This document shows, one piece after another, positions 1-56,050 of a stretch of DNA of 64,000 nt. Both the position numbers and the translations under genes were made by a program. Below the pieces are notes generated by a model, which saw nothing but the letters and a program-made list of their open reading frames with translations, did not search any database and was not told where the DNA came from. Location: the NCBI GenBank assembly GCA_028753945.1, contig JAPNXP010000002.1:3100001-3164000 (forward strand). The letters run 5' to 3'. Position 1 is the first letter of the stretch; every line of letters begins with the position of its first letter. The DNA comes from Hexactinellida sp. DTS-2022. Taxonomy: Eukaryota > Porifera > Hexactinellida.

Positions 1-1331
1 TTGATTTATTAAATATTGATCCACACATCAACAGGCACTACCTTCCAGGCGGAGGAGCAGAGTGTTCACTTAGTGTATTGCTTGTCTTAGCACACTTTGG
101 TTTAAGGAGATAGAATATCGCATTTTCGACACCCGATGACCCCCAATTATTATTGCATTTTTGAACAGTACTAGTTATTCTTAGAAGGACGTAGATACTC
201 ATAATTTCAAAAATCGAAAAATTTGAATTAGATATTCATTGTCAAAGTTAAGCCTAATAGTGAATCCATACTAGATAATGTAAGAGCTAGCAATTTACTC
301 TATTAGGCGCAAGTTCTGTAATAGTGCTAATTTAACTCTTTACTATTAGTTACATCAGATCCGCCACGTACATTTGTCAGAATCAATTTAATTATTTTTT
401 TCTATGGATTTTAAAATAATTGCCCAAATTTACCAATATTTGGCTCTGATTAATTATTAACTCTATAACTTTGTATTACAGTTCGAAAATCGACGCGGCG
501 GATCTGGTAGCTCTACTGATAAGGACCATTTTTGAGGGTTAGTTTTTTTCTCTACGACTTATACGTTTTGAGATATCCCCTACATAATCAAGGTCACTCC
601 CGGGAAATTCTTACGGAATGTATTTGTACAAAATGGCGGTGATTTTGACCTTTAGTGACGTTAAAAAGGTAGAAAAAATGTCCGAATCAAATTTTCCTTT
701 TGGATTTGGATAGATAGCATGTCAAAGTATAGCTATGAGTGGTGCAAGAAAAATTTATCCTTTTTCATAAATTGACAATAATTCAGGATTGTATGGCCAT
801 ATTTTTCTATAGGACGATGATTTTGACCTTGGGGGACGTCAAAAAGGTCAAAAAATGTCCGAATAGAAATTTTCTTTCGGAATTGGATAGATAGAGTATC
901 AGAGTATAGTTGGGAATGCATAAATAAGAATTTTGCATTTTTTAATAATATACATCAATGCGAAAGATATTCTATCTCCTTAACTGAAATTAGTTTTATT
1001 TATTTAATATTGAGCCACACATCAACAGGCTTTACCGTCCAGGCGGAGGATCAGAGTGTTCACTTAGTGTCTTGCTTGTCTTAGTTCACTTTGTTTAACT
1101 TAAAAATGTTTTATTTATTAAATATAGATCCACACATCAACAGGCACTACCCTCCAGGCGGAGGAGCAGAGTGTTCACTTAGTGTATTGCTTGTCTTAGC
1201 AAACTTTGGTTTAACTAAAATTTGTTTTATTTATTTAATATTGAGCCAACGTCAACATACACTACCCTCCAGGCGGAGGAGCAGAGTGTTCACTTAGTGT
1301 ATTGCTTGTCTTAGTTCACTTTGTTTAAGCA
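1..1331. repeat. 115-bp tandem repeat, four copies, one interrupted
   Basis: Copies begin near 1, 994, 1109 and 1225, a period of about 115 bp. Each runs from a TTTTATTTATT-like start through CAGGCGGAGGAGCAGAGTG to TTGCTTGTCTTAG and a short T-rich tail. The first copy is split by the TTAA-flanked element at 106-979. I see no coding potential. The array probably continues beyond the left edge of the window. Confidence 0.85.
106..979. mobile_element. TTAA-flanked MITE, family A (piggyBac-like)
   Basis: Inverted ends GGAGATAGAATATCGCATT and its complement are flanked by TTAA at 102-105 and 980-983. The uninterrupted tandem copy near 1208 (GGTTTAACTAAAAT) supplies the empty site, so the TTAA was duplicated on insertion. 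The 874-bp element has no transposase. TTAA duplication is the hallmark of piggyBac-type transposition. The interior contains CGACACCCGATGACCC and repeated GACCTT..GTGACGT motifs also found in the copy at 13984. Confidence 0.85.
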
Positions 1332-2339
1332 CATAAACAATGTCTCGTTATTGTAATTCCTTACATAAAAGTGTACATGGATTCCTCATACGAGCAATTT
1401 CAGCGTTCGAGAAATTTCTGGGTTGTCCATTAATTTTGGCTAATATACATGAGGAAATTGGAGCCTCGTACAGGGATATGACTAAAATAGATTTGTAGGT
1501 ATGGCAAATTGGCAATGGTCATGGTATTTATATATACCGTCACAAAATTTAGCGCTAGCTAGTTTGTATTATGTAGGTGATCTGAATTGTCTGGTTAACA
1601 ATTAAAGATACTAATATTTTTTAAACTAATCTATTTCATTCTTGTTAAGTATGTTATTAACAAATCCTCGTTGAGCCCGTGATTGAAGGTCTCGTCTGAT
1701 TAAAGAAGAAATCAATCAACACGTCAACAAACAGTTATACAACTGAGTGATCTATTAGGAGGAACGCCGTTCCCTCCGGGCTTGAATTTTCTCATGGGGG
1801 AATGTCGTTTCCCCAGCAAAAATAGCGGGAGAACGGCGTTCCCCCGCGTTCCCCCTGGAAAACATCACTGGTATAGGCGTAACACGAGAATTGTTGCGGT
1901 AGATACCCTTATTTTTTCGAGGCGCAGTACTCTCTCCTTCACGGTTTCGTTCTCTCTCTTGAGTCGCTTTCTTGCTGAATTGCACCTTTGTTTGTAATCG
2001 TTGGACACACGCGAACGTTTTTTAAGCGGTATTTATGTAATGATGTGCATTATTACGGAAGTGTTTATGACGAATGTGTAATATGACGGATGTTAAAATT
2101 AATGTAGATCAGTTGTATTTATATCACCTGGGGGCCGATTATGAGACCATTGACAACTCAATGGAAGCTGAAATTTTATTGGTTAAAAATATTACTGCTC
2201 CAGGGATATTTAATTGTTGTCTTCTTTGATACACAATTGATTCATTTAATTAGACCAATAAAAACTCTGAAATCTGATTGGTCATAGTCAGTAGATAGTG
2301 GTGTGAAAATAAGCATACGTATGTTAAGTTGCAAAATAT
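1332..2339. other. Intergenic, dispersed repeat remnants
   Basis: No gene recognised. The stretch 1910-2330 resembles 13020-13560 (both carry ACACGCGAACGTTTTTTAAG and the same downstream order), so it is an old copy of a dispersed repeat. A G/C-rich patch at 1760-1860 has repeated GGGGGAA / TTCCCCC blocks. Confidence 0.5.
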
Positions 2340-2483: not shown

Positions 2484-3210
2484 TTTTTTCGCCAAGTCAT
2501 CAACGCCAAAGGTGTGAAGAACCATTTGTTAATTGGTCGCAGTGACAAGGAACGGTAGATAAATTTGAAGTTTGTTTCTATCATAAACCATCTAGAGTTT
2601 AATGCCATTCATTCATTATGTATTGATAATAAAATATTTTATTAGTTAATTATTTTAGCAATGTTATCCACGGTTGGTTGAGTTGAGTCAACAAATTCCT
2701 TATATTATATTATTTTATTTAATCCATTGTATAATAATACTACAATTAAATAGAAGCCAGCTGGAATTTATAAGTTGAATCAATTTAATTATCGCAAATT
2801 GAAACAATAGTGAAAGATTTAACAAGTTAAATCAATATAATTATTACAAGTTGAAACAATGGAATTAGATTTCACAGTTTTATTGAAATTGAAGTGTGAG
2901 TAAACAAAGAAATTTCAAGCCCCATTTATGGCAGAAATTAAACCCTTTATTGAAAGTTTTCTTCTCCCATCATACGCAGAATATTATGGTGAATCCAAAT
3001 ATGAAATAAAAATTGGGGGTTTAGTAAAACATTATTTGAGTTATGGACCAGACAAATTTTGAAAGGTGTTAAAGGTGTGTCCAAAATTTGTTAATCAAAA
3101 ATCGTGACCCCAGGTGCAAATTAGACGGTCCCATCGCACCTACATGCCAAGTTTCAGAACATCAACAATTAAGTTCTGGCCAGGGCACCGTCTACGGAGA
3201 AAAAGAAAAT

Positions 3211-7363: not shown

Positions 7364-7965
<602 letters not shown>

Positions 7966-8060
7966 CCCTCACATCTCCTATGAGAGTTCTCAACAGATCT
8001 GAACCAAATTTTGTAGGTCACTTAGGGTTTATCCAACCACCCAGAATAAGGAGTTTTTAA
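7966..8060 (-). repeat. Conserved tail of the microsatellite-bearing element
   Basis: On the minus strand this reads CAAAATTTGGTTCAGATC then GGAGATGTGAGG then the microsatellite. The same order, with (GACA)n in place of (CA)n, occurs on the plus strand at 13755-13826. Block S plus microsatellite plus this tail looks like one non-autonomous element, comparable in plan to HINE/DINE-type Helentron derivatives. That assignment is inference. Confidence 0.5.
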
Positions 8061-9590: not shown

Positions 9591-10325
9591 TTTTTATTAT
9601 TTTTTTCTTTCTCCGTAGACGGTGCCCTGGCCAGAGCTTTAGAGTTGATGGGCTGAAACTTGGCATGTAGGTGCGATGGGACCGTCTAATTACACCTGGA
9701 GTTACGATTTTTGATTAAGAAATTTTTGACACATCTTTAACACCTTTCAAATTTTGTCTGGTCCATAACTCAAAAGTTGTTTTACTAAACCCCCAAATTT
9801 TATTTCACATTTGGATTCGCCATAAAATTCTGCGTCTGATGGGTGAAGAAAATTTTCAATAATGGGTTTAATTTCTGCCATAAATGGGGCTTGAAATTTC
9901 TTTGTTTACTCACTCTTCAATTTCAGTAAAACTGTGAAATCTAATTCCATTGTTTCAACTTGTAATAATTATATTGATTTAACTTGTTAAATCTTTCACT
10001 ATTGTTTCAACTTGCGATAATTAAATTGATTCAACTTATAAATTCCAGCTGGCTTCTATTTAATTCTAGTATTACTATACAATGGATTAAATATAATATA
10101 ATAATAAAAGGAATTGTTGACTAAACTCAAATCACCGTGGATAACATTGCTAAAATAACTAACTAATAATATTATCTATTATCAATACATAATGAATAAA
10201 TGGCATTAAACTCTAGATGGTTTATGATAGAAACAAACTTCAAATTTATCTACCGTTCCTTGTGACTCGGACCAATTAACAAATGCTTCTTCACACCTTA
10301 GGCGTTGATGAATTGGCAAAAAAAA

Positions 10326-10440: not shown

Positions 10441-11187
10441 TTCTTATTATTATTATTAAAATATTTTTTTCTCCGTAGACGGTGCCCTGGCCAGAGCTTT
10501 ATAGTTGATGGGCTGAAACTTGGCATGTAGGTGCGATGGGACCGTCTAATTTGCACCTGGGGTTACGATTTTTGATTAACAAATTTTGCACACATCTATA
10601 ACACCTTTCAATATTTGTCTGGTCCATAACTAAAGAAATGTTTTACTAAATCCCCAAATTTTATTTCACATTTGGATTCACCATAAAATTTTGCGTCTGA
10701 TGGGAGAAGAAAATTTTCAATAAAGAGTTTTATTTCTGCCATAAATGGGAGTTGAAATTTCTTCGTTTACTCACACTTCAATTTCAGTAAAACTGTGAAA
10801 TCTAATTCCATTGTTTCAACTTGTAATAATTATATTGATTTAACTTGTTAAATCTTACTCTATTGTTTCAAATTGAGATAATTATATTGATTTAACTATT
10901 AAATTCCAGCTGGCTTCTATTTAATTGTAGTATTACTATACAATGGATTAAATAAAATATATTAATATAAGGAATTTGTTGACTCAACTCAACCAACCGT
11001 GGATAACATTTCTAAAATATATTACTAATAATATATTTTATTATCAATACATAATGAATGTATGGCATTAAACTCTTGATGGTTTATGATAGAAACCAAC
11101 TTCAAATCTATCTACCGTTCCTTGTCTCTCCGACCAATTAACAAATGGTTCTTCACACCTTTGGCGTTGATGACTTGGCGAAAAAAA

Positions 11188-16154: not shown

Positions 16155-16820
16155 CCTTCCGTATCCTCTCCACAGAACAGAGTTTTTCTAACTAAGAGCC
16201 CAAACTTCAGGAAATGTGTTTCATGGTCATCGGTTACAGATGTGCACCTGGGGTCAGGATTATTTATTACATTTTTTTGGACACATTCTTGCACCTGTTT
16301 AATGTTAGAAAAAGAACAAGAAATAGTGCGCGAATATTTAATTTATATGCATTCGATAGAGAATTAAATTCTACACCTTTTCACAGTGCACGAATTTTCA
16401 AATTGTACTTAGTTTGTGCCACAATAGAGTTGCAAGTTTATTTGTTTACTAACACTTCAGTTTAATTGAAAGTGTTAAATCTAATTCTATTGATATTCAA
16501 CTTGTGATCATTATATTGATTTAACATATATATTCCAGCTGGCTTCTATTTAATTGTAGTATATTACTATACAATCGATTAAATTAAATCTAATACATAA
16601 TATAAGGAATTTGTTGGCTTAACTCACTCACCCTGGATAACATTGCTAAAATAAATAACTAATAATATAATTTATTATCAATACATAATGAATGAATGGC
16701 ATTAAACTCAAGAAGGTATATGATATAAACAAACTCCAAATTTATCTACCGTTCCTTGTGACTCGGACCAATTAACAAATGGTTCTTGACACCTTGAGGC
16801 GTTGATGACTTGGCGAAAAG

Positions 16821-31243: not shown

Positions 31244-32041
31244 CTAAGCAAAAAAGAAGGAATCAAAATGTTCATTTCCTTTTAGACAGCTACTAAGTCT
31301 ATGATGTAAAAAACAGACTTTCTGTGCATTAAAAATCGGATCACATTCAATAGGAGTGTCTAACTTATTGTGTAAATAGTTAGGGAGAATGTTCCAATTC
31401 ATTGAGTTGACATGAGTACAATCAACTGATAATATGTCAATTCCAGCCAAGGCGGCTAACATATTAAGTTCAACATTTGTACACCATGCATTGGGTGCAG
31501 AAATAGCGTTAATATGTTCATGCAATTCCTGCTCACTGTGTATGCCAGATGTGCGCATAACATTGTAGTGATGCTGGGTACTGGTAATGAATGTATTAAT
31601 CAGATTGTACTTTAATATATCGAAAATAATTTCAGTGCCAAATATTATATGAGATAGGGTAAGGTACAAACAGTTACCATCTGGTTGAACATCATACACT
31701 GAAACATTCTGACCAAAATATGTTGTCAGTTGTGCTTTAAGTGAGGTGTAATAATTGCTTACTGCACCTCGAGTCTCACGAATAGGTAAAATTAGTGTCT
31801 CGTGTAATCCAATACTATGCGTAATCTTCTGCCGCATTGGGATAGTAAGATTATTGACCGTACCATTGAGAAAATACTCTGACAAATCGAATGGATCTCG
31901 AATTATTGCATCAAATATACATTCACGATCTGATACTGGTGATAAAGTGTATTCAGCTATATCCATTTTGTCTATAACTTCCAATGGGCTAATACACTGG
32001 CCAGCCAAAAGTATTTGAACATTAGAGATTTCAATGCACAC
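31244..32041 (-). CDS. OTU-type cysteine protease domain, Helitron-associated
   Basis: 265 codons, open throughout. The OTU active-site block is visible as VQPDGNCLYLTLSH (Asp-Gly-Asn-Cys, near residue 120), and the C-terminal His as GNEHFDSFF in the last ten residues. OTU domains cleave ubiquitin or similar isopeptide bonds and are found fused to or beside Rep/helicase in many animal Helitrons; their role in transposition is unsettled. It lies 460 bp downstream of the helicase on the same strand. There is no clear link between the two frames, so it may be the end of the same polyprotein after decay, or a separate gene. The start (ATG at 32041) is arbitrary because an upstream fusion is possible. 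Confidence 0.8.
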   Translation of the reverse strand: MCIEISNVQILLAGQCISPLEVIDKMDIAEYTLSPVSDRECIFDAIIRDPFDLSEYFLNGTVNNLTIPMRQKITHSIGLHETLILPIRETRGAVSNYYTSLKAQLTTYFGQNVSVYDVQPDGNCLYLTLSHIIFGTEIIFDILKYNLINTFITSTQHHYNVMRTSGIHSEQELHEHINAISAPNAWCTNVELNMLAALAGIDILSVDCTHVNSMNWNILPNYLHNKLDTPIECDPIFNAQKVCFLHHRLSSCLKGNEHFDSFFFA

Positions 32042-32503
32042 ACAATACTCGTCTAATAACTTATTAACGGCTATCTAAACTACTCTGAAATTACTATAAA
32101 TATCTTATTATAGATATACATCACAAAACATTATGATTTCAATTTAATTTATAAAATATCCTTGAAGTGGCATAAGTGTTTCTGCCACGTGCCACTTGTG
32201 GCATAAGTGGCACAAATTGAAATGTACTGGATCACTGTAGAAAATATTCGGATTGATTTGAAATTTTGCACTTAGAGAGATTAAACCATGAGGATTCAAA
32301 TCTGCTATCAGAATTAATATATTAACATTGCATCTTAATGTTCATAAATTAAATATTTAATTAGCTAATTAAATATTTAATGAGTTTAACGCCTCCATAA
32401 AAATTTAAATTCGAAAATTTTCCTGTTTTATTATACTTTACATATCGTTTCATGTAAATAGCCATTTTGTTGCATCTGCCATTGTTATTATGCTGGTATA
32501 ACC
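32042..32503. other. Spacer between helicase and OTU frames
   Basis: AT-rich. GTGGCATAAGTG and TGCCACGTGCCACTTGTGG repeats near 32168-32215 form a compact inverted repeat; nothing coding was seen. Confidence 0.4.
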
Positions 32504-34282
32504 TCAAATGTCTGAATACAAATTATTGCTGTTCAAATACTTTTGGCCGGTTAGTGTAGTACTGTCATTAAAGTCAAAAAGTTTCATGATTTTTCCTTTG
32601 CCATCAGATATATTTAGGACAGACTCTCTCTTTGCAGGAGCAATAGCCTCAGGCAAAGGAGTCATTGTCAATTGGGAACTTGGGAATATTTCATTCAATA
32701 GAGAACATATTTCATCTATGTCTTCTATGGGCTCAATATGAGAAGAGGATTTAAAAACTTCCCTATAGACTACATTTCTAATCCAAACTTCCCCAGATTT
32801 TGATTTGTCAGTTCCACATACCATTATTTTTAGTCCCAATGGATTTTTAACTCTACTCAATGCAACATAGAGTTGGCCATGACTAAAAATGGCTTCAGGG
32901 GATGGCAGATATTGACCAACGGTATCCAAACTCTGACCTTGCCCTTTGTTAATTGTGAAACAATAGGCTAAGCGCATTAGAAACTGCCTCCTTCTGAGAA
33001 TAAATGGAAGTTCAGACTCAGAAGAAGTCAATATAATTCGTGGTATAAACACTCGCTTATGCTTGTTTGTACCAGTTGCGATCTCCGTGGCAATTACTCG
33101 GTTTGAGAATGCTCTAATAATCAACCGAGTACCATTACAAAGACCCTCATCGGGATCAAGGTTACGCAATAGAATTACAGTCGCAAACAATTTCAAGAAA
33201 TCCGATGGGGGGGCATACCGTTAGGAGTGATGAAATTTAAAAACTCATTTGGAAAATTTACTGCAGCAGAACCTTCTACAGAATCTGCGCTCAACAGAGT
33301 TATACCATCACCAGGAAGCTGATGAATTACGTAATCGTTTATTAAATCTGCTGTATCATTTTAGGACACAGAATAATTTTTTGACTTACATAATCACGAT
33401 CAGCGTAATTTACATTTATATCACCATAGACTGAAGTGACCAAGTCTGTAATGGAATCACCTGGTACTACAAATTTGTTATCTATGTGAATCATTTGATT
33501 GTCATCCTCAGGTTCAGTGCCTTCTCCCACTCTTAATAAAAAGTTTGAAAATTTACTGACCTCGAGGGCATCTTGTGACAATAATGTTTGGAGGCGCATA
33601 TTTATGGTTAGCTTCATTACTTTAACATAACGCCAGAGATATAACCTGTTCAGACAGGAATAGACCACTTCGGCTCTCGACCCATGCTTAACCACAGGGG
33701 GTATCTGACGGAAGTCGCTTCCAAAAACCATTACTTTGCCACCAAAGGGGAGATCACAGGAACAAATATCCCTCAAACTGCGATCAACACACTCAGCTAC
33801 ATGCTTATTTGACATGCACGCTTCATCCCATAACAAAAGTTTTGTACGCTTAATTAGCTGTGCCAAAGCACTCTGTTTCGAAATGTTACATACAGATAAC
33901 TCATTGATATCAATGGGAACTTTCAACCTAGAGTGGACAGTCCTCCCTCCTGTGAGGAGGAGAGCGGCTATGCCACTGCTAGCTAACCCAAGGGCAATTT
34001 GACTCTTCGAGCGAACTTGAGCCAACAGTATATTATAAAGGATTGTCTTCCCTGTGCCCCCGGGACCATCTACAAAGAATATTTTGGGATACTGCTCATA
34101 ATCATTTACCGCTGCTATTATAGAGGTAAATACACTAAGTGATCAGAATTAAGAGAAGGAACATCATGAACAACTATAGCTAGCTGCTCATCAACGTTAT
34201 AATCTAATTCTCTCTGAATAATAAGAGCCTCCTCGTATGGACTTCTGGTATGAATGGGTATTGCCATCCCTGGGAAATCTGC
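32504..34282 (-). pseudogene. Helitron Pif1-type helicase, copy A
   Basis: SF1B helicase module of a Helitron RepHel protein. Walker A, FVDGPGGTGKTILYN, lies around 34030-34075; Walker B is LLLWDEACM; motif III GSDFRQIPPV follows. Near the C-terminus are AYCFTINKGQGQSLD and GQLYVALSRV (motifs V/VI). Breaks compared with copy B: a frame break near 33340, and a one-base loss near 33205 that turns the PPHR..FKLFATV junction into a stop. The segment after the helicase core (VCGTDKSKSGEVWIRN, ending at 32504) is Helitron-specific or lineage-specific. The 5' side is cut at ~34282 by a family A fragment. Identity with copy B is very high by eye. Confidence 0.9.
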
Positions 34283-35886
34283 TTGTACTAATGTAGTAGA
34301 GTTAAACTTGCACTGTAATAGAACTTGCGCCAAATAGAGTAAATAGCTAGAATTTAGAATGACTAGTATGGATTCACTATTAGGCTAAACTTTGTCTATG
34401 AATATCTAATTCAAATTTTTCGATTTTTGAAATTCTGAGCATCTACGTCCTTCTTAGAATTACTAGTACTGTTCAAAAATACATTAATATTTTGGGGTCA
34501 TCGGGTGTCGAAAATCGGCGGGTCTATCTCCTTGACGCTACCTACGACTAGTCAGGACTGTGACGTATTGGGTTAAATCAAAACTATTAACGATGTCAAT
34601 TCAATTAGTATATCAGTTCCTTTGCCTTACTGTATAGTATATGAAAAATTACTAACATCATTGATTTCATTCTTAAACTTGTCTATATTCAAAGAAGACA
34701 TGTATAGCGTTGCTATGTAATATAAGCCATAGATATATCTAGTAGAAAAACATGATAACTATAATCACTTTGTTTTACTTCATAACTCGTCAAATAAATA
34801 TGCATTCAACTTGCGAATACGAGAAAATCACCAATATTATCCAAATTTATATTATTTATTAGGAATTCAAAAATTATGGTCAATTTTTCGATGGAATTTC
34901 CCTATTTTTGAGAAATGTGGCCATACAACTTGGCGAAATTAGAAAAAAGTATGGAAACGCTCTGAATGTTATTTAGATATATATATAAACTACATCTCCC
35001 AGAAATTTCAAGTTGATACGATAAATAATCACGGAGTTCTCTAGCTTTTTCCACAGCCGGTATTAGAAAATATTTATGTGGAGAAGAGGGTATAGAAGGA
35101 CACAAGAGTGGCACAAACCTTCAATACTTCTTACAGATAATGGTTTGAAGATAATTGAAGCAGTTCATATTCCTCGAAAACGATTACTGATAGTGTTAGC
35201 AAGTTAGAGCTAAGCTCTTGCACAACTCTTATTTTCATGATCGATGGTTTGTGATGGTCACATGACACCTCCATATATGGGCATGGGCTTCTTAGCATGG
35301 TAACTATTTGGAAAATAGTCCAATTTGTTATTCCAATGATATATGCATGATATATTGATGTGAATAATCGATTAGATCTAAGCTCTGCTTTCTCTAGTTT
35401 ATGAGATATAAAATTGCTAAATCATCAAAATGTGGCACATATCCATGCCCATATATGGTCATTTGAAAAAACGGGCGTCTGAGGGTCACAAAATGTATTA
35501 GGGACGCATAGGAAGTCGTATATTGCGAGCCTTTTTCACTAGTGCATTTTAATTCTAGGTGCACGGGTGTCTGAGAAATGTATTCAGAGGGGGTGTTTTA
35601 GAAATAGGACCCCAAGGATAGATAATGGCCCTAACTTTGCGAATTTTCTCTTTCTATATGATTTCTATATCAATTTGGTTTTTTTTCCCACAGACTATCT
35701 AATGGGCCAGGTATATTCAAGGAAAATCACAAAAAATCACGTCAGTTACAGCAAACAATCCATCTGAAAGTGCTGAACCACTGAAAAAGTACATTCAGCA
35801 CCCCAAATATCGTAATTATAGAGGTCAAATTAATCGAGTTATTGTACGTTTGACCTTTGCATATCCTTGGGGGCTTAATCAAGCGT
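34283..35886. mobile_element. Composite insertion inside Helitron copy A
   Basis: 34283-34538 is the reversed half of a family A TTAA element (contains CGGGTGTCGAAAATCG and TCTATCTCC). The remaining 1.3 kb is AT-rich with CACCTCCATATATGG-type motifs typical of the TTAA elements here, ending GGGGGCTTAA at ~35879. Helitron Rep homology resumes at 35886. No gene recognised. Confidence 0.65.
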
Positions 35887-36486
35887 CTATAGACGAATAA
35901 TAATTTTTTGTGATTTTGGAGCCATTGGCAAAATAGTACTCGTAGGTAGCGTTAACACATCCTCAATATCAGCGTCATCTCGAAAAACGACAGATTGCTG
36001 ATTTTCAAGATGAAGAGCTAACCTCATCACATGTGGCAGATTAGCATGGAGATCGTAAGAAAATATTCTATAGCAAGCCTCGCATGCAGATATATACCGA
36101 GCTTCAACATAATTCGATACTTCGTCTACCTTCCGAGGTTTATCAGTGTGATCACCCGACTGGAACTCGATAATGGCTAGATGATGGCCTTTATAGACAT
36201 ACTTATAGAGGTACTTAACTGATCTAACTGTGCTGCAAATTTCAACGTTAATGTGAGCATTATACTTTAATAAAAGGTATGGGTTATATGGTACAACCCA
36301 TCGATTGTCAAGCTTCATACCTGCTACCTCTACAGTACGGGAGTTATCTCTGCGCCGATACAATGGGTTACCATCCTTAGTGGTGGTTGTAACGTCAGAG
36401 AATTTCTTTGGGTATTGTTTAGCACATGAACTATTGCGCATACAAACAGCAGCCTTCTTTGCAGTACAACATGGACCATGTAACAT
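35887..36486 (-). pseudogene. Helitron Rep nuclease, C-terminal part, copy A
   Basis: 199 codons. It opens with MLHGPCCTAKKAAVCM, the usual M-x-H-G-P-C block that follows the HUH region, and includes NRWVVPYNPYLLLKYNAHIN and VKYLYKYVYKGHH. The last carries the tyrosines expected for Helitron Rep strand transfer. EARYISACEACYRIFSYDLH is the standard downstream block. It should connect at its start to the HUH part (42741-43940) and at its end to the helicase; both links are broken by insertions. The start codon is internal to the original protein. Confidence 0.88.
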
Positions 36487-37101
36487 ATAGTTAGGGAATT
36501 TTAGCCCAAATTATAGGTCAACCTCGAAAAAAATTGTTACCAAACAATTTCTACACTAGCGTCTTCTTCTATGTCCGAATAAACATAGAAAAAAAGTTGC
36601 AAGCCCAAAGCTGTGAGGAAATCTTTTTACACCCCTTCAAACCTGGGGACCAGGGGCCAAAAATCGCCGATATTTTTACCTTTTTTTTTCATTAAAATCA
36701 ATTTATATGGTGTATTTTGGAATAAGGAATTGTTTAGAACCACCCATTTTATGCTAGCATTAATAGAACCTCTCGAACTTTGAGCATTTAATCGAAAAAT
36801 TCGAATATCTGAAACCTAATACTACAAAAGTTAGGCCCTATCAAATAAATTAGTTGTTTAATATTCCCGCCCGTCCCAATTTTTACACTCCGTCCGGATT
36901 CATTTACTATTAACTTATGAACTTAATAGTGCAAAATATTAGCTATTGACTGATGTTAAATATTCCTAATGTATCAATTTTAATAAGTCAAGAATTTTAG
37001 AGCATTACTTTTATATTTTGGGCATTGCCTTGTGTTTTTCTAATTAAATTAAATCAGAATATGTATTTTATTTGATATTGGATATGTTGTTTCATATTAA
37101 T

Positions 37102-42740: not shown

Positions 42741-44980
42741 CTATAGAGCATGCGGAATATGCAATAATATACATTTAATCAATGTTCTGGGCCTCCGCCC
42801 TGAAGGTGTGGGTCGAGCCTTGAGATCAGGATCAGGAAGTTCAGCACATACAATCTTATAGTAATCAGAAGGGTCACGTGGTTTGCAATCATCAGCTAAG
42901 ATCACCAATATATGGGCATGCGGTAGACCACGCTTCTGAAATTCAATTGTGTAGACGTGTGCAATGGGTTTACCAAGAACATGTTTCTTAAGAATGTCAT
43001 CTAGTAATTCCCTTAGCTTTTGTTTAAAAACACGAACAATTAAATCGGGACGATCAGTAGCCTTCTGGTTAGGCAAAAGACTACTCGTTATCTCGTCCCA
43101 AAGCGGATTACATGTAAATGTAATGAATAAATCTGGCTTACCAAATTTCCGCACTATTGTCATTGCGTCCTGATAAAGTTGGAACATTTGCCTCGGAGAG
43201 TTGGTATAGCTCGAAGGTAGAATAATATTCCGTCCCAACTCAGTCGCATTAGTGTCTTCTTTGGCAACAGCATCAGCCAATCCACTATACAGATCAACTC
43301 GGATCTTCTGCTGATTGGTCTTAATGTAGTTGAGCCGCTGCTGCTCAATCTTAGCGTACATATCAACGATGTACTGGTGGAACAGCCTTCCCGAGAGGTG
43401 CAGGTGGTTAAGCCCGCTCCTGTGCATCAGGCGATAGCTATAGAACTCCAGTGTAGTAACATCGCGTCTACCTCTGCTATGAGGGATACCAAGGTGCCAG
43501 CCATCATTTCCTAGGGGAAACAGTAAGACATAATGCAGCGAGTCATACGCACAGTGTGTTTCTGTGATCCTTTTGAGACCACCACTGTGGGCATGCAAAA
43601 CAATATTCCTGTTTGCAACTCCCACAGAGTAACCTCCACCTGGGAGCAACACTGCAATTTCAGGAGCAGAAGGAGCGTTGTATCGGCGTGGATCTGGGCA
43701 ACCATCAGCTCTGATGATCAGCCTGATGTCCACTCCTCCTTGTGCTCGCATTTGATCAACTGCGTGCTTGAAGTGTGAGACATAGGGGTTAACCTCATGT
43801 AGCATTTGCTGCAAGGCCTTTAACTCAGGAAGTTTGGCCTCGCCTAGATGTCTCTGACGGTTTTCCACTTCAGCCTCTGCAGTACCGTCGTGTATGTAAA
43901 TCTGGGCAAAAACTGGTGCCTCATCACTATTTGGAAGCAAACTCCAATCTAATGGTGCACAATGCCCTGAATACTGAAGGTATATACACCACGTCTAGCA
44001 TTAGCAAGCTCTTTGTCAATATTTGCTCCGAGGGAACAAAACGCAAGGCTTGAGTTGTATGCTCGTATGTGGCTCCTGAAGTACTTGCCTCTGCTATCAG
44101 CAGCTGTGAGCAGATGGTCTAACAACTCAGGAAGTTTATCTAAGGAGGGAAGAACAACCTTGCCCTCTCCGCAACAGAGGGAAAACTTTGCACATGCTTT
44201 TGTACTTGTGGAAAGCTTTTCACTCTCCAAAAACTTAGCATCACAAATTGAACAATTATTGGACATACTACCTAATGAATGTTCATCAACCAAACCATCA
44301 CTAACCTCAGAAGAGATTTGTTATCTGGCTAAATTGAGGTACCTCTTAGATTGGAGAGTCTTACTCGTCTCATACAACAGAGTTCGGGACTTCAAACGAA
44401 CAATTCGCTCATTTTCAGACTCACTTTGTCTGAGGGTCTCCTGGTGTATGCGCTGGTACTCCAGGCGATCAGCTGACTGAGCCTCAGACTCACTTTGTCT
44501 GACGGTCTCCTGGTGTATGCGCTTATATTCCAGGCGATCAGCTGACTGAGCCTCAGACTCACTTTGTCTGAGGTTCTCCTGGTGTATGCGCTGGTACTCC
44601 AGGCGATCAGCTGATTGAGCCTCAGAAGCACTTTGTCTGAGGGTCTCCTGGTGTATGCGCTTGTACTCCAGGCGATCAGCTGATTGAGCCTCAGACTCAC
44701 TTTGTCTGAGGGTCTCCTGGTGTTTTCGCTTGTACTCCAAGCGCTCAGCTGATTCAGCCTCAGATTCGTTTTGTCTGAGGGCCTCCTGGTATTTTCGCCT
44801 GCACTCTATTCGCATAGCAGTCTCTGCGTCAGACTGCGCCAGTCTCTGAGATGTTAGTCGCTCTCGTTGCTTCTCAAGACGGAGAGCTCTTTCGCCAGGA
44901 GTCTCATTCTCACGCATTGAGCGCTTTCTCTCAGCTTCCGTCTTGAACGGTTTAGTATTAGGAAAATTATTATCCGACAT
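42741..44980 (-). pseudogene. Helitron Rep N-terminal and HUH region, copy A
   Basis: It begins at ATG 44980 with a charged region containing about six 23-residue repeats (EYKRIHQETLRQSESEAQSA type, 69 bp each). One frame then continues through a stop (NLAR-TAA, ~44321) into a zinc-finger-like block: CSICDAKF and FSLCCGEGKVVLP, then FCSLGANIDKELANARRGVY. A TAG at the conserved HHxIG site (43949) and a one-base shift precede the Helitron_like_N domain at 43940. The HUH nuclease core shows FITFTCNPLWDEI and RGLPHAHILVIL (His-Ala-His), then YKIVCAELPDPDLKARPTP. Homology ends at ~42760. Function if intact: rolling-circle nicking and strand transfer. Confidence 0.9.
44385..44800 (-). repeat. 69-bp in-frame tandem repeat in Helitron N-terminus
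   Basis: Six units with CTCCTGGTGTATGCGCTGG and CAGGCGATCAGCTGA landmarks. Because 69 is divisible by three, frame is preserved and the protein repeat is 23 residues, predicted as a charged helix. Confidence 0.9.
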
Positions 44981-50640: not shown

Positions 50641-52335
50641 CTAGTCTGAATCAGGTGTGAACTTCCGTTTGTTAGATTTTCGAGCATGAATAACACCAAT
50701 ACAATCTCTCTTGAGGCACCAACAGTAATCAGCCATCATATGAACGTCCCACCTTCCTTGATATCGTGTTTCCATTATTTTAATGTCTTGGTGGAATCGT
50801 TCACCTTGCTCCTCGGATACAGCACCAAGATTATCTGGAAAATAGTCAATATGACTGTGAAGGAAGTGAACCTTCACACTCATATTGCAGCCAAGGTGCT
50901 TGTAAGAATCGATTAACTCATTAACAATCACTTTATAATTAGGAGATTTGGTATTTCCTAAGAAGTTTTTAATTACATCTACAAATGCAATCCAGGCACA
51001 TTTTTCAATGGAACTCATAGAATTTGAAAAGTTATCATCTCGAACAAGTTTTCTTATCTGAGGACCGTCGAAAATACCGGCTATTTTCTTTTCATTACTT
51101 AGATGAGAAAACTTCTCAGCAATATATTTGAAGCAATTTCCTTCTTTATCTAATGACCTCACAAACTGTTTCATCAGTCCCAAATTTATATGAAGTGGAG
51201 GAAGTAGAATCTTGAGAGGATCCACTAGAGGCTCATGAATAATGTTCTTGTCTCCGACAGTAAGTTTGGATCTAGCTGGTCAGCTCTGTTTAGAATAGTG
51301 TTCGCTCTTAGCACGGCTGTCCCATAAGCATAAAAAACAGGGGAATTTAGTATAACCAGATTGCTGTCCCAAAAGAATGCATATGATTTTTAAGTCACCG
51401 CAGATAACCCAATTGTGTAGATTATAATTAATCTTATGCAGCACTAATTTCATGTTTTCATAGCTTTCCTTCAAATGTACTGAATGTCCAATTGGGATGG
51501 AACTAAATTTGTTACCATTATGAAGTAATACACATTTCAAACTTTGTTTTGAGCTATCAATAAAGAGTCTCCATTCATCTTGTACATATGGACACCCGAG
51601 AGCGTTAACTAGCCCTGAGACATCATGACAAAACACAAAATCATCTTCCATTACAAAGTATCTCAAAAGATCGATCTCTCTGTTTCTGTATGAATAAAAT
51701 TTGGTATCTGGGCAGAGTAAGTTTTTTTCTTTAAGTCTAGAACCTAAAAGTTCTGCAGCTTCTTTTGGTAAATCTAAATCACGTACGAGATCATTTAATT
51801 CAAACTGATTAAATAATTGGGGAGACTTAGAACGAGATGATGTGACAGGAATAAAATAGTCATTTTCTCCACTTGATGAATCTGTTATTTCACAGTCATC
51901 AATTTCTGAGATTACATGCAATTTACTGAATTCTGGGATAGGTACTTCAACAGAATGAGGAACAGGTCGAATTGCCGATGGTAAATTTGGATAAATGATC
52001 AATGACTTGGTTTTTGCATTGAAACCAGAAATATTTGTCATACAAAAGTAACAGTCGTTAATATGATTTTGAGGCTCTCTCCATACCATTGGAATGCCAA
52101 AACTTAGACTCTTTCTGATTCCTTTTGTCCATTGTCTCAGATTTTCTACACAAGATCGGCAGACTGTATGTGGAGCCCATGTTTTGTCCTGATCACCTAA
52201 TCGCATACCAAAATATCCGAAATATGCTTTTTTAACAAAGTATGTTATAGACGTGGATTGTTTGGAAGTCATAAAACTACCACAAATATAACAAAATACG
52301 TCTGGATCATTTCTACACCTTCTCCGATAGGCCAT
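50641..52335 (-). pseudogene. DDE-like transposase family with zinc motifs, one stop codon
   Basis: A single frame of 565 codons, interrupted only by TGA at 51280 (codon 352). The context, KQS-stop-PAR, suggests a former Trp. The N-terminus has paired cysteines C15/C18 and C59/C62 (FCYICGSF, VCRSCVENL) and C95/C98. Candidate catalytic residues: D260 (RLFIDSSKQSLK), D314 (VICGDLKII), E512 (SEEQGERFHQDIK). C333/C336 (FPCFLCLWD) lie 19 residues after D314, and H490/H493/H495 precede the Glu. RAG1, Transib and CMC transposases share that D-CxxC-H-H-E order. The C-terminus is basic (ARKSNKRKF). I recall this protein family as uncharacterised, repeated sequences in animal genomes; the superfamily is not certain. 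Confidence 0.7.
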
Positions 52336-52450
52336 ATTCTAATATATTACTAATAAAATACAAAAAAGAACAAGATAACATAAATTATGAATTAATCCAC
52401 CAACATTGGTTGAATGGATTGGAGATATTTGGCCTAATTCGAAATGCACA

Positions 52451-52963: not shown

Positions 52964-52968
52964 CAATC

Positions 52969-53009
52969 CACAGTGGGTTATTATGGCTATTCAGGGGAAA
53001 TAGGCATTT
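52969..53009 (+). promoter_or_regulatory. RSS-like end: heptamer, 23-bp spacer, conserved block
   Basis: CACAGTG (52969-52975), 23 bp, then AATAGGCATTT (52999-53009). The second copy at 57745 has the same heptamer, the same spacer length and the same block, while 20 of the spacer bases are largely unrelated. In V(D)J signals the heptamer is followed by a 12- or 23-bp spacer and a nonamer. Confidence 0.8.
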
Positions 53010-53300
53010 GCGAGGCAGACAGACCTATCAAATGTATTATTTGCGTATGGGTTATCAACCCTCTACATTCAATTTACATCACTTAATTTTATGTACCGCT
53101 TCAATTTTTTGATTTAATGACGTCATCGTGACATCACATATTTACAAAAATATCTATTTAGCTCTATAATGTGTTCCTAAATACTTCGAATGCAATGCAT
53201 ATTTTTTCACTCTATTTAAGACATACTACTTCATGCTTTCACGATTCAATATTAACTTCAAATTTTTATTATTAATATCATAGATACTAAACTAAGGAAT

Positions 53301-55425
53301 TTATTTGAAGAGCAATGAATCCAAAAGTTTGTCCTGATCCAGTGAAGCCACTTTATCTCCTTTGCACTTCTCCTTCCTGATATGCCCTATTTCTCCGCAA
53401 CGTTTGCACACTAAAACTCTACGGTAACTTGAAAAGAGAGGGTCACTCTGACTAAGAAGTCTAATAAAAACATCTCTGATGTTTAAGGAAAATGAATTCT
53501 TTCTTGAAAGGTGTTCACGATAGCGCCTTATTAGCTTATTACAAGCTTCTACAGCCTCTTCTGAATATTCTTTCAGTCCATAACCGTCATTGCAATCACG
53601 GATTAATTCTGTGGAATGAGCTAAAACCTTATGCAATGAAGGGGTAATACTTGCCCATGGGAAGGTTGTTAAAATTAGCTCGTAAGTCTGTTTGCAAAGG
53701 ACATCCATTTTTTCTGTTTCTACCTCCTGGCTACTGTTAAAAACTCGTAAGATAACTGATAGATTCATTTGAATGATTGCAATCTGCTCTCTAACGTCTG
53801 CCGGAATTAGACAGAATACCCATGTGATAATATCATTTTTATTGGAAAAACATTGCCTAGAAATATTCCCTGTTGAAGTAGTACCGCCTTGAGATGTTGG
53901 CTGATCTATTCGAAGGCCAGTTTTTTCAAAGAGAAATTCAGAACAAAACTTTTTCGCTGTTTCGATTGGTTTTGAAGTAGGCGACCATACTCTCCTTCCA
54001 GTCTTTATATGATAAACAAGGAGCATGAACCAATGGAAGACACAAGTATAGCTATGTAAAGGAGACGCCGACAGTATGTTTATATCGGATAGTTGTTCAT
54101 GAGTGATACCTAACCTATCAGCATGAGGAAGTGATAAATATTCATCCGCATCCACGTAATTGAACAGTTCTTTTGCATCTGCTATGTGCCTATTAATAGG
54201 GAATCCGGCCCTGACTAATTCTAGATCTTTTAATTCGTGTTTATGTGCAGTACATAACTGACACGATGCGCCACCAGCTCCGCTTAGAATACCAGACATC
54301 TTCCCATCGAGCATACTACGGCTGATTTTAACACGAACAACACCTTCAGGAAACTTTATTCCTTCTTGCTCAATGACTGATACTTCTGGATTAATGAAAT
54401 TAGTCATAATGAATTTAACGTTCTCATAACATTCTTTCTGGGCCAATAATACAACTGGTCTTACGCCAAATGAAGAATTAGGTGAGTAGTTTTTCCATAT
54501 TTGCATGTTACTCGAGTTGTGTATGGATAAAATTTTGAATGCGAATAAGATAAAAAATTTCGAACTTGGGGTTGGATTGAGTTGGTAATGATTATAAATC
54601 TGATGACAACCAGAACCATCGAGGCCGTCAGCTATTTACTGATAAAGGGAATTCAAATTCAAGGATCGGAGGTAATGTTTGAAATAGACGTAATAAACTC
54701 TGGAATAAAATCCTTCTATAAGATAGTGAGATCCCGATAGTAACATTATGGACATTGTTTGCATAGGTTAACTCGTTAACTAGAACGGCATCCTTACGAT
54801 ATTCAGCAAGTTTAGAATAAGATGGAAATATTATGTCCTCTGATTTACAAATTAACCGAAAAGATGTATATTTTTGCTTACCAATTTCGAGAAGATCAAG
54901 CAAGAACGTTGATTTATCTATGGACATAATTTTCGATTTATCTGCAAATGTCCCCTTTGAAATGATTTCCTTGCAGAAGTTTGCCGTGCTTACATCCTTA
55001 GTCTCGTTAGAAATAAGTTGAAGCGCTTGAGCGGCTATGGTTTTGGCACTAAAATCCTCTTTCTCAGCTATTTGACGGATTAGTTGCAATACTGGCGCTA
55101 ATCTAGTTCTCAATCCCTTGAAGGTTAACTTTGATAAGTCCTTTCGTATTTCTGCTGATAAGTCAACGGTAAAGATTCCATTGTCAGCTGAAGGTATTTT
55201 CTCCGCATCTTGTTTAACTCTAGGAGAGTAAAACATCAACTCCTCCCAGGTGCATAAATTACTTTTCTTTACAAAGCTCTCTCTTCCCGATTTGAGATCG
55301 CGAAACATTCGAGTAATGAAATGAAATTCGCTATCCGTCTGTTGGAATATGTTAAGTAATTCCTCAGAAGCAGCTCTGATTGATGGTTTAGAGTTTAAAA
55401 GTTTAAAAGCCTCTTTGTTATTCAT
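53301..55425 (-). pseudogene. RAG1-like transposase, one frameshift
   Basis: About 707 residues from ATG 55425. The N-terminal 265 codons end at 54628 by frameshift; the frame resumes at 54632 and runs to 53301. Catalytic triad: D1 in ADGLDGSGCHQIYN (54629), D2 in SMLDGKMSG (residue 67 counted from Met 54506), E in YSEEAVEACNKLIRRYRE (residue 320). Spacings are 107 and 253, against 108 and 254 for RAG1 D600, D708, E962. Zinc ligands match RAG1 C727/C730 (ASCQLC) and H937/H942 (LHKVLAH). The tail holds CKRC-GEIGH-IRKEKC, a CCHC knuckle like that reported in RAG1-like transposon proteins. LLEIGKQKYTSFRLICK upstream resembles the RAG1 region before the catalytic core. No RING domain is present. 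Confidence 0.9.
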
Positions 55426-56027
55426 TCTATAATATCAACAGTCGACAATGTTAAAATTTGATCAATTTTGAATTTTTATATTTTAAAGATTTTAAGAAAT
55501 TTATTAGTGACTTCTAGAAAATTGGGCAGAAGGGCCTCGGAGCGGCTTGGTGCGGTCCGATAAAATAGACCAAATTAAAGTTAAACCAATTAGCTATCAT
55601 AATAAAAATTAAAAACATCTGCTCACAACTGCTCACCAATATTTTTCACACTAAATAGGCAAAATAATTGTGTCCGATTATTGTTCAACATCAGTGAGAG
55701 TACACAGAAAATTTTCAGAGAATTTGCTTACGACTCTCTCTTCGTATATTTATATACTAGCATAAATGTCAAAGGAATAAGAATATCATATCCGCCTTTA
55801 CGTTGCTATGTAATTAAATATCAATTTATAAATAGAATCCAACAGTTGTGAAACATCAAACTTTCACTATAAAAATTGTTTATCAAGTTAGTAATTAATC
55901 AACACACAAGTGAAGAACCTGAAGTACTATGACAATGAAAAGTTGGATTTATAGGTTTTAGACAATGCGGAATAAGAATATAATAATATCAAAGCCATTC
56001 AGGAGTTTGAAAAATTACACTAATTCC

Positions 56028-56045
56028 CCATAATAACCCACTGTG
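56028..56045 (-). promoter_or_regulatory. Second end of the RAG1-like transposon
   Basis: Reading inward on the minus strand: CACAGTG, GGTTATTATGGGG (13 bp), then AATTAGTGTAATTT. The last segment resembles AATAGGCATTT of the other end but is ten bases closer to the heptamer. Confidence 0.7.
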
Positions 56046-56050
56046 CAATC

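Follow-up and report, generated by a model that had tools for sequence, protein, structure and literature searches.

A probable Subgroup I Transib transposon with CACAGTG ends and unequal end spacers in a Hexactinellida genome

The 64,000-nucleotide window analysed here (Hexactinellida sp. DTS-2022, contig JAPNXP010000002.1, positions 3,100,001 to 3,164,000, forward strand) contains between 52964 and 56050 a transposon of 3,077 bp whose ends are perfect 18-bp inverted repeats CACAGTGGGTTATTATGG and which encodes a relative of the RAG1 recombinase. From its sequence features we read it, with a probability of about 0.85, as a cut-and-paste transposon of the Transib superfamily and of the 'Subgroup I' type; by these features the family would belong to a kind that has already been described. 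In the window we see a recent insertion with a broken gene; unbroken copies of the same family exist elsewhere in the genome. The transposase is related to the recombinase that rearranges antibody genes in vertebrates, and most relatives of the element with comparable ends show a short and a long spacer, as in that rearrangement. The mechanism is ordinary, but the apparently RAG2-less system holds an informative detail for the origin of the 12/23 rule, as it touches the question whether the paired-spacer rule of the antibody genes arose before or after RAG2.

A sequence-only reading of the window had proposed a RAG1-homologous cut-and-paste element with heptamer ends of the recombination signal sequence (RSS) type, a 5-bp duplication and a single long gene, and this description was borne out. 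The terminal inverted repeats (TIRs), which begin with CACAGTG, were complementary at 18 of 18 positions and are flanked on both sides by CAATC, as had been claimed (Table 1). The genome, a 112.4-Mb assembly of 18 contigs, was searched with the 18-bp end allowing up to 2 mismatches. This gave 54 places, compared with 2 for the reversed control pattern. The DNA search returned 59 matching rows, of which ten were long at 97-100% identity (window copy included) and 49 were shorter or more diverged (64-98%). Among the 12 loci examined (L001-L012), seven had both exact ends and five lacked one or both. The seven copies of the window family (family A) with exact ends were all flanked by perfect 5-bp duplications (CAATC, CACGA, CGCTG, AAATG, CATGG, TAGTA and CATGG). 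These duplications and the excess over the control pattern speak against end repeats that match by chance.

The flanks of the seven copies were joined with one copy of the duplication and compared with the window and the collected loci. The L006 junction was crossed uninterrupted by four repeats of the window, 85-88% identical over 304-412 bp. L005 gave one uninterrupted match at 78% and L001, the window copy, gave two that are weak (68-69%); for L002, L003, L004 and L007 none was found in this comparison. The uninterrupted repeats at 3 of 7 sites are paralogous empty-site evidence of insertion with a 5-bp duplication. The repeat copies of the type that the L006 element entered elsewhere lie at window positions 2545-2950, 9859-10269, 10720-11125 and 16462-16765.

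The element carries one long gene, and its next open reading frames (ORFs) have at most 81 residues. In the window, two overlapping minus-strand frames were observed, which are 268 and 444 residues long from stop to stop. The segments 55425-54637 and 54635-53304 match an unbroken protein from another genome locus in its residues 1-263 and 265-708, respectively. The window copy therefore has a single frame break near 54630, in agreement with the claim that the gene is one frameshift from intact. The two pieces were searched separately and the sequence was not mended. The genome-wide search for an unbroken copy, which had been proposed as a check, recovered frames of 708-710 residues in 3 of the 12 loci (L004, L006 and L009); L009 is split near one end by other DNA, and its end piece is L019. 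Since the three coding frames, each about 2,120 bases long, show 3 to 15 differences from one another, the family has moved recently.

The catalytic triad was assigned to D270, D374 and E627, which stand in the alignment columns of the RAG1 residues that we take to be D600, D708 and E962. Throughout the 21 aligned rows these columns hold D, D and E wherever a row has a letter there (the fragment L077 is without the first column). D374 and E627 agree with the D-107-D-253-E spacing proposed from the sequence; its first residue, D267, is not conserved in the distant L055 and was replaced by D270. The proposed CxxC and HxxxxH ligands were recovered as C389/C392 and H599/H604. The N-terminal residues 1-250 contain 3 cysteines, so a zinc-rich N-terminus of the RAG1L type is not present, and no Pfam match above cut-off was obtained there. 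At the position that we equate with R848 of RAG1 by its chain numbering, the 16 of 18 own-genome rows that were readable by the regular expression have T or S and none has arginine; BbRAG1L has M, RAG1 R and HzTransib T. R848 was selected during domestication (PMC9435367). A single-sequence structure prediction of the longer window frame reached a mean pLDDT (predicted local distance difference test) of 34 and was not used.

The protein from the window matched the Pfam RAG1 family at 1.2e-7. When a profile of ten own-genome proteins (A1) was compared with PDB chains, the best match was 6pqn, which we take to be HzTransib, at 8.2e-55, followed by amphioxus RAG1L at 2e-29 and vertebrate RAG1 at 1e-18; the protein does not group outside RAG and Transib. 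Over the aligned reference parts, the unbroken protein is 26.5% identical to HzTransib, 22.3% to BbRAG1L and 19.4% to mouse RAG1, and BbRAG1L and mouse RAG1 share 36.3%. The alignment with one RAG1 row is continuous from the nonamer-binding region (RAG1 GRPR) on; that with HzTransib begins only at profile position 170. In an unrooted maximum-likelihood tree of 21 rows, BbRAG1L and mouse RAG1 paired at 100/100, with HzTransib, L055 and the other own-genome rows opposite. Because the tree is unrooted, with three reference rows, three long-branch rows flagged by the tool and no outgroup, it shows only that the element is not nested with RAG1L. Relatives outside its own genome were not found among viral contigs, GTDB genome contigs and plasmids.

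The term RAG1-like transposon, if taken in the RAG1L sense, is not supported for an element whose best match and highest identity are to HzTransib and which stands outside the RAG1/RAG1L pair in the unrooted tree. We consider it quite improbable that the element is a RAGL-type transposon nested in the RAG1L clade which has lost its RAG2L gene. It shares with RAG1L a zinc-domain stretch and a knuckle like that of the C-terminal tail (CTT), both described below. However, HzTransib and not BbRAG1L tops both match and identity, the 100/100 pair of BbRAG1L and RAG1 forms without it, and its first 250 residues are not zinc-rich. Each element also has one long gene, and a convergent RAG2L gene is not present within the 3,077 bp. 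The RAG2 Pfam family PF03089 had no match in the genome, which is a weak point since the control set was equally silent.

Tao et al. 2022 (PMC9435367) proposed Subgroup I Transibs as intermediates between Transib and RAG1L. Subgroup I is separated from Subgroup II by the RAG2-contact stretch of the zinc domain, the CTT and asymmetric ends, and Subgroup II is without alpha11-alpha12 of this domain (PMC9435367). The distance from the CxxC to a conserved LH was 65-69 residues in 17 of 18 own-genome rows, compared with 64 in mouse RAG1, 60 in BbRAG1L and 30 in HzTransib. The regular expression misread L057 (value 3) and the zinc motif of L056; both rows are normal in the A1 alignment, and that of L057 is full. 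In our reading, residues 407-455 would correspond to the RAG2-binding region alpha11-alpha12 of PMC9435367.

The window family carries the C-terminal knuckle CKRCGEIGHIRKEKC with the spacing Cx2Cx3GHx5C, and the RAG1L knuckle is given as Cx2Cx3GHx4C in PMC7204232. A knuckle was present in 9 of 18 own-genome rows, window family included; its last loop has 5 residues except in L058 (three), and in L078 SH replaces GH. With a 57-residue tail query, the PDB gave nothing better than E 0.14, mostly generic CCHC knuckles. When the presence of the knuckle was mapped on the unrooted tree, three changes were needed. Since it is missing in half of the rows while the CACAGTG ends persist (L052, L056 and L075), the sequences suggest that the knuckle is helpful rather than essential in this clade.

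The two ends were compared in nine subfamilies: A (window), B (L013), L051, L052, L056, L058, L075, L078 and L082. The start-codon end was compared with the stop-codon end at offsets of 4-20 bp either way and the best 9-base match was taken. The repeated second element was best at +9 in A, B, L052, L075 and L056 (tied with -12), at +10 in L051, L058 and L082, and at +14 in L078, that is, a shift of 9-10 bp in 8 of 9 subfamilies (one tied). The longer spacer was at the stop-codon end in 9 of 9, for L056 only via one side of its tie. The match was reached at any of these offsets in 224 (A), 9 (B), 6 (L051), 7 (L052), 1734 (L056), 165 (L058), 11 (L075), 6 (L078) and 12 (L082) of 3000 shuffles of one end. 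The asymmetry is individually strong in six subfamilies (L078 among them, at +14), weak in two and not significant in L056. With +9/+10 only, the match was reached in 8 (A), 13 (L058) and 86 (L056) of 2000 shuffles. The subfamilies are related and are therefore not nine independent trials.

In L052, ATCTTCGAATAGGCA occurs error-free at position 15 and again at position 24. A GGAAATAGG-like consensus was drawn from the same ends that it scores, and 7 of 9 was reached by 720 of 9000 shuffled ends. By this consensus, subfamilies A, B, L051, L052, L058 and L082 have spacers of 10-11 and 20-21 bp behind the heptamer, and L078 has spacers of 7 and 21 bp; in L056 and L075 the consensus lands elsewhere. 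In A and B, a 14-bp element is followed by 4 or 13 bp and then by the second element. Ends were sought and not found for L053 (hit spurious), L054, L055, L057, L076, L077, L079, L080 and L081. A related family of non-autonomous elements, which are about 1.06 kb long and have CACAGTGGGCTATTATGG and CACAGTGGGCTATTATTG as their ends (also CACAGTGGGCTATTATGG/TTG; for example L044 440-1518), was left out of the nine-subfamily comparison, and L014-L016, L018 and L020 lie outside the spacing analysis. This CACAGTGGGCTATTATGG family is probably moved in trans by a related transposase.

A 12/23-like asymmetry is described for some mosquito and fly Transibs in PMC8355894, so asymmetry as such is not new. 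By this precedent, an element of Subgroup II, to which most known Transibs belong, might have gained asymmetric ends and a knuckle independently; zinc knuckles are common and gainable, and the knuckle is patchy in this clade. We nevertheless regard this origin as unlikely. The stretch that PMC9435367 describes as lost in Subgroup II is present in all ten A1 proteins, the distant L055 included, and a regain of this stretch in addition to the knuckle is less likely. The earlier suggestion that the element is close to the ancestor type of the recombinase finds support only in shared features, namely the zinc-domain stretch, the C-terminal knuckle and the asymmetric ends.

Several observations weigh against the assignment to Subgroup I. 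Within the superfamily, the element was placed by its features and by comparison with a single Transib structure. The knuckle has x5 in its last loop (x3 in L058) and not the published x4, and 9 of 18 own-genome rows are without the knuckle. Among the ends, those of the insignificant L056 match better at -2, an offset beyond the compared range; A and L058 are weakly significant when any offset is allowed, and the non-autonomous family (L044) has no significant +9/+10 repeat. Finally, no 5-bp duplication was observed in five end pairs (L015, L016, L020, L044 and L082).

CACAGTG was found at both ends of 15 elements in the 9 subfamilies and of the non-autonomous L044; L015, L016 and L020 each have one altered heptamer. 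Perfect 5-bp duplications flank 14 of 19 end pairs (seven of family A, L013, L051, L052, L056, L058, L075 and L078). The ends of L051, L056 and L075 had been sought with the duplication as one criterion; without these three the count is 11 of 16. The 14 duplications contain 35 G/C in 70 bases (binomial p 0.005 against an assumed 34.5%), and a GC lean of target duplications is described for ProtoRAG, Transib and RAG in PMC8289069.

Three genome searches by protein or family gave 67, 116 and 33 rows, which merged at 4 kb to 108 places. This count is low because only the best candidates were scored; many places are fragments, and elements cut by large inserts may be counted twice. Autonomous Transibs typically have one or a few copies, according to Kapitonov and Koonin 2015 (PMC4411706). 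An account of the present expansion was not found in the open literature, with subscription journals and Repbase outside the scope. Open frames of about 700 residues were found in L004, L006, L009, L013, L014 and L051-L058, where the tail of L053 leaves the alignment. A close relative of HzTransib was not seen in the genome; the best-scoring match was 32% identical and no row exceeded 38%. L055 (contig 2, 3227724-3229808; locus 125-2209, plus strand) represents a second, distant RAG1/Transib lineage, about 30% identical. It has a 695-residue open frame without a C-terminal knuckle, and no other locus of the genome matched Pfam RAG1 as well; a search for its ends was without success.

A and B differ by 191, 110 and 399 changes at the three codon positions over 707 codons, a pattern that marks selection on the protein. 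Only codon-position counts were used since the synonymous divergence (dS) between subfamilies is saturated. A strong third-position excess and many long open frames would also be expected of a domesticated family of Transib-derived host genes. That the sequences are such genes and not mobile elements is, however, very improbable. At unrelated sites the copies share 97-99% identity, a 5-bp duplication flanks each of the seven that have both exact ends, and at 3 of 7 sites the target repeat is uninterrupted elsewhere. The third-position excess arises because selection also acts on transposases.

The sequences themselves show the asymmetric ends, the duplications, the uninterrupted target repeats, the unbroken frames, and the D-D-E and zinc ligands; for the transposition itself we propose the following course by analogy with RAG, ProtoRAG and HzTransib biochemistry. 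The RAG1-core DDE transposase of about 710 residues would bind both ends and pair a short-spacer end with a long-spacer end. It would nick next to CACAGTG and then form hairpins on the flanking DNA, as RAG and Transib do. Strand transfer to new DNA with 5-bp staggered cuts would then give rise to the 5-bp duplications. Where it is present, the C-terminal knuckle probably recognises bases immediately inside the heptamer, like CTT* in amphioxus ProtoRAG, and the N-terminal region, which resembles the nonamer-binding domain (NBD), probably recognises the second element.

The 9-10-bp difference was kept in 8 of 9 subfamilies (one tied) and no RAG2 was seen, which suggests that the transposase alone can use paired spacers. 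According to PMC8355894, vertebrate RAG1 by itself does not prefer asymmetric ends. A stronger proposal, which we put forward only tentatively and hold to be rather doubtful, is that a RAG1-type transposase without RAG2 enforces a short/long pairing of about 11/20, so that the 12/23 logic would predate RAG2. The clade offers a natural series of unbroken proteins: several of its subfamilies have open frames, some carry the knuckle and others do not, and the host is perhaps an early-branching animal.

Table 1. Features of the transposon, in window positions.
Feature	Position	Strand	Basis
5-bp target site duplication, left copy CAATC	52964..52968		sequence
Left TIR, stop-codon end of the gene, begins CACAGTG	52969..52986	+	
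Second end element GGAAATAGG, long-spacer end, 20 bp after heptamer	52996..53004	+	
Transposase gene, one frame break near 54630, stop 53301-53303	53301..55425	-	
C-terminal zinc knuckle CKRCGEIGHIRKEKC, residues 674-688, CTT1/CTT*-like, last loop one residue longer	53364..53408	-	
Catalytic E627, aligned with RAG1 E962	53547..53549	-	
ZnH2 motif HKVLAH, residues 599-604	53616..53633	-	
Zinc-domain stretch, residues 407-455, in RAG1/BbRAG1L, missing from HzTransib	54063..54209	-	
ZnC2 motif CQLC, residues 389-392	54252..54263	-	
Catalytic D374, aligned with RAG1 D708	54306..54308	-	
Catalytic D270, aligned with RAG1 D600	54618..54620	-	
Second end element GGAATTAGT, short-spacer end, 11 bp after heptamer	56019..56027	-	
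Right TIR, start-codon end of the gene	56028..56045	-	
5-bp target site duplication, right copy CAATC	56046..56050		sequence

Elsewhere in the window, pieces of Helitrons (PIF1 helicase and Helitron_like_N, with an OTU-like match below cut-off) lie on the minus strand at 31244-36510 and 42741-43994. Next to the element, 50641-52338 holds two neighbouring minus-strand open frames of 352 and 212 residues with a cysteine-rich start and no Pfam match, which are probably another mobile or lineage-specific gene. A long CA/GT microsatellite at 7370-8000 is open in several frames. Rfam gave no match within the window. In the genome, only two nuclear-receptor zinc fingers (PF00105) were found on contigs 9 (842183-842389) and 17 (2262919-2263143) at 5e-28 and 1e-17, from three first-look candidates, and the 14 control genomes gave no PF00105 match. 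Nuclear receptors are not known outside animals, and sponges have two; the two domains thus mark the host as an animal, possibly a sponge. For the arthropod cuticle family PF00379 no match was obtained, with an equally silent control. COX1 likewise gave no match in the genome (8 of 14 control genomes did), and no TTAGG array was found, where the reversed control pattern occurs 53 times.

Compared with known systems, the family resembles the Subgroup I Transibs (PMC9435367) in its apparently RAG2-less RAG1-core transposase, the zinc-domain stretch, a C-terminal knuckle of roughly CCGHC type and asymmetric bipartite ends; the likeness was drawn from the described features. It differs from them in the Cx2Cx3GHx5C spacing in place of x4, in the absence of the knuckle from half of the 18 rows and in its roughly 108 places in one 112-Mb genome. 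With HzTransib, the best PDB match, it shares the catalytic core and the zinc ligands. At 26.5% identity, HzTransib is without the zinc-domain stretch (30 against 65 residues) and has no knuckle in the residues seen (9-471 of the 497-residue chain). Most Transib families, HzTransib included, are described with symmetric TIRs in PMC8289069.

The DDE core and the zinc-domain stretch are common to the family and ProtoRAG/BbRAG1L (6b40). PMC7204232 and PMC8289069 give ProtoRAG a CTT knuckle, asymmetric ends (27/31 bp) and a 5-bp duplication, and a CTT-type knuckle, asymmetric ends and a 5-bp duplication also occur in the window family. ProtoRAG, in contrast, has RAG2L and a zinc-rich N-terminus (PMC7204232), its BbRAG1L is 22.3% identical, and the spacer difference in the present clade is 9-10 bp. 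AanRAGL of Aureococcus has a 13-bp terminal and a 10-bp second element with 4/13-bp spacers (PMC9435367). The same spacers follow the 14-bp element of subfamilies A and B, whereas AanRAGL carries RAG2L and the element sequences differ. With vertebrate RAG1 and its 12/23 RSS, the family shares the CACAGTG heptamer, the D-D-E and zinc ligands and a second element whose two spacings differ by about one helical turn. The second element is, however, GGAAATAGG-like here and ACAAAAACC in the vertebrate RSS, the spacers are 10-11/20-21 bp in six subfamilies, no RAG2 was seen, and T or S occupies the R848 position in the 16 of 18 own-genome rows that were readable there.

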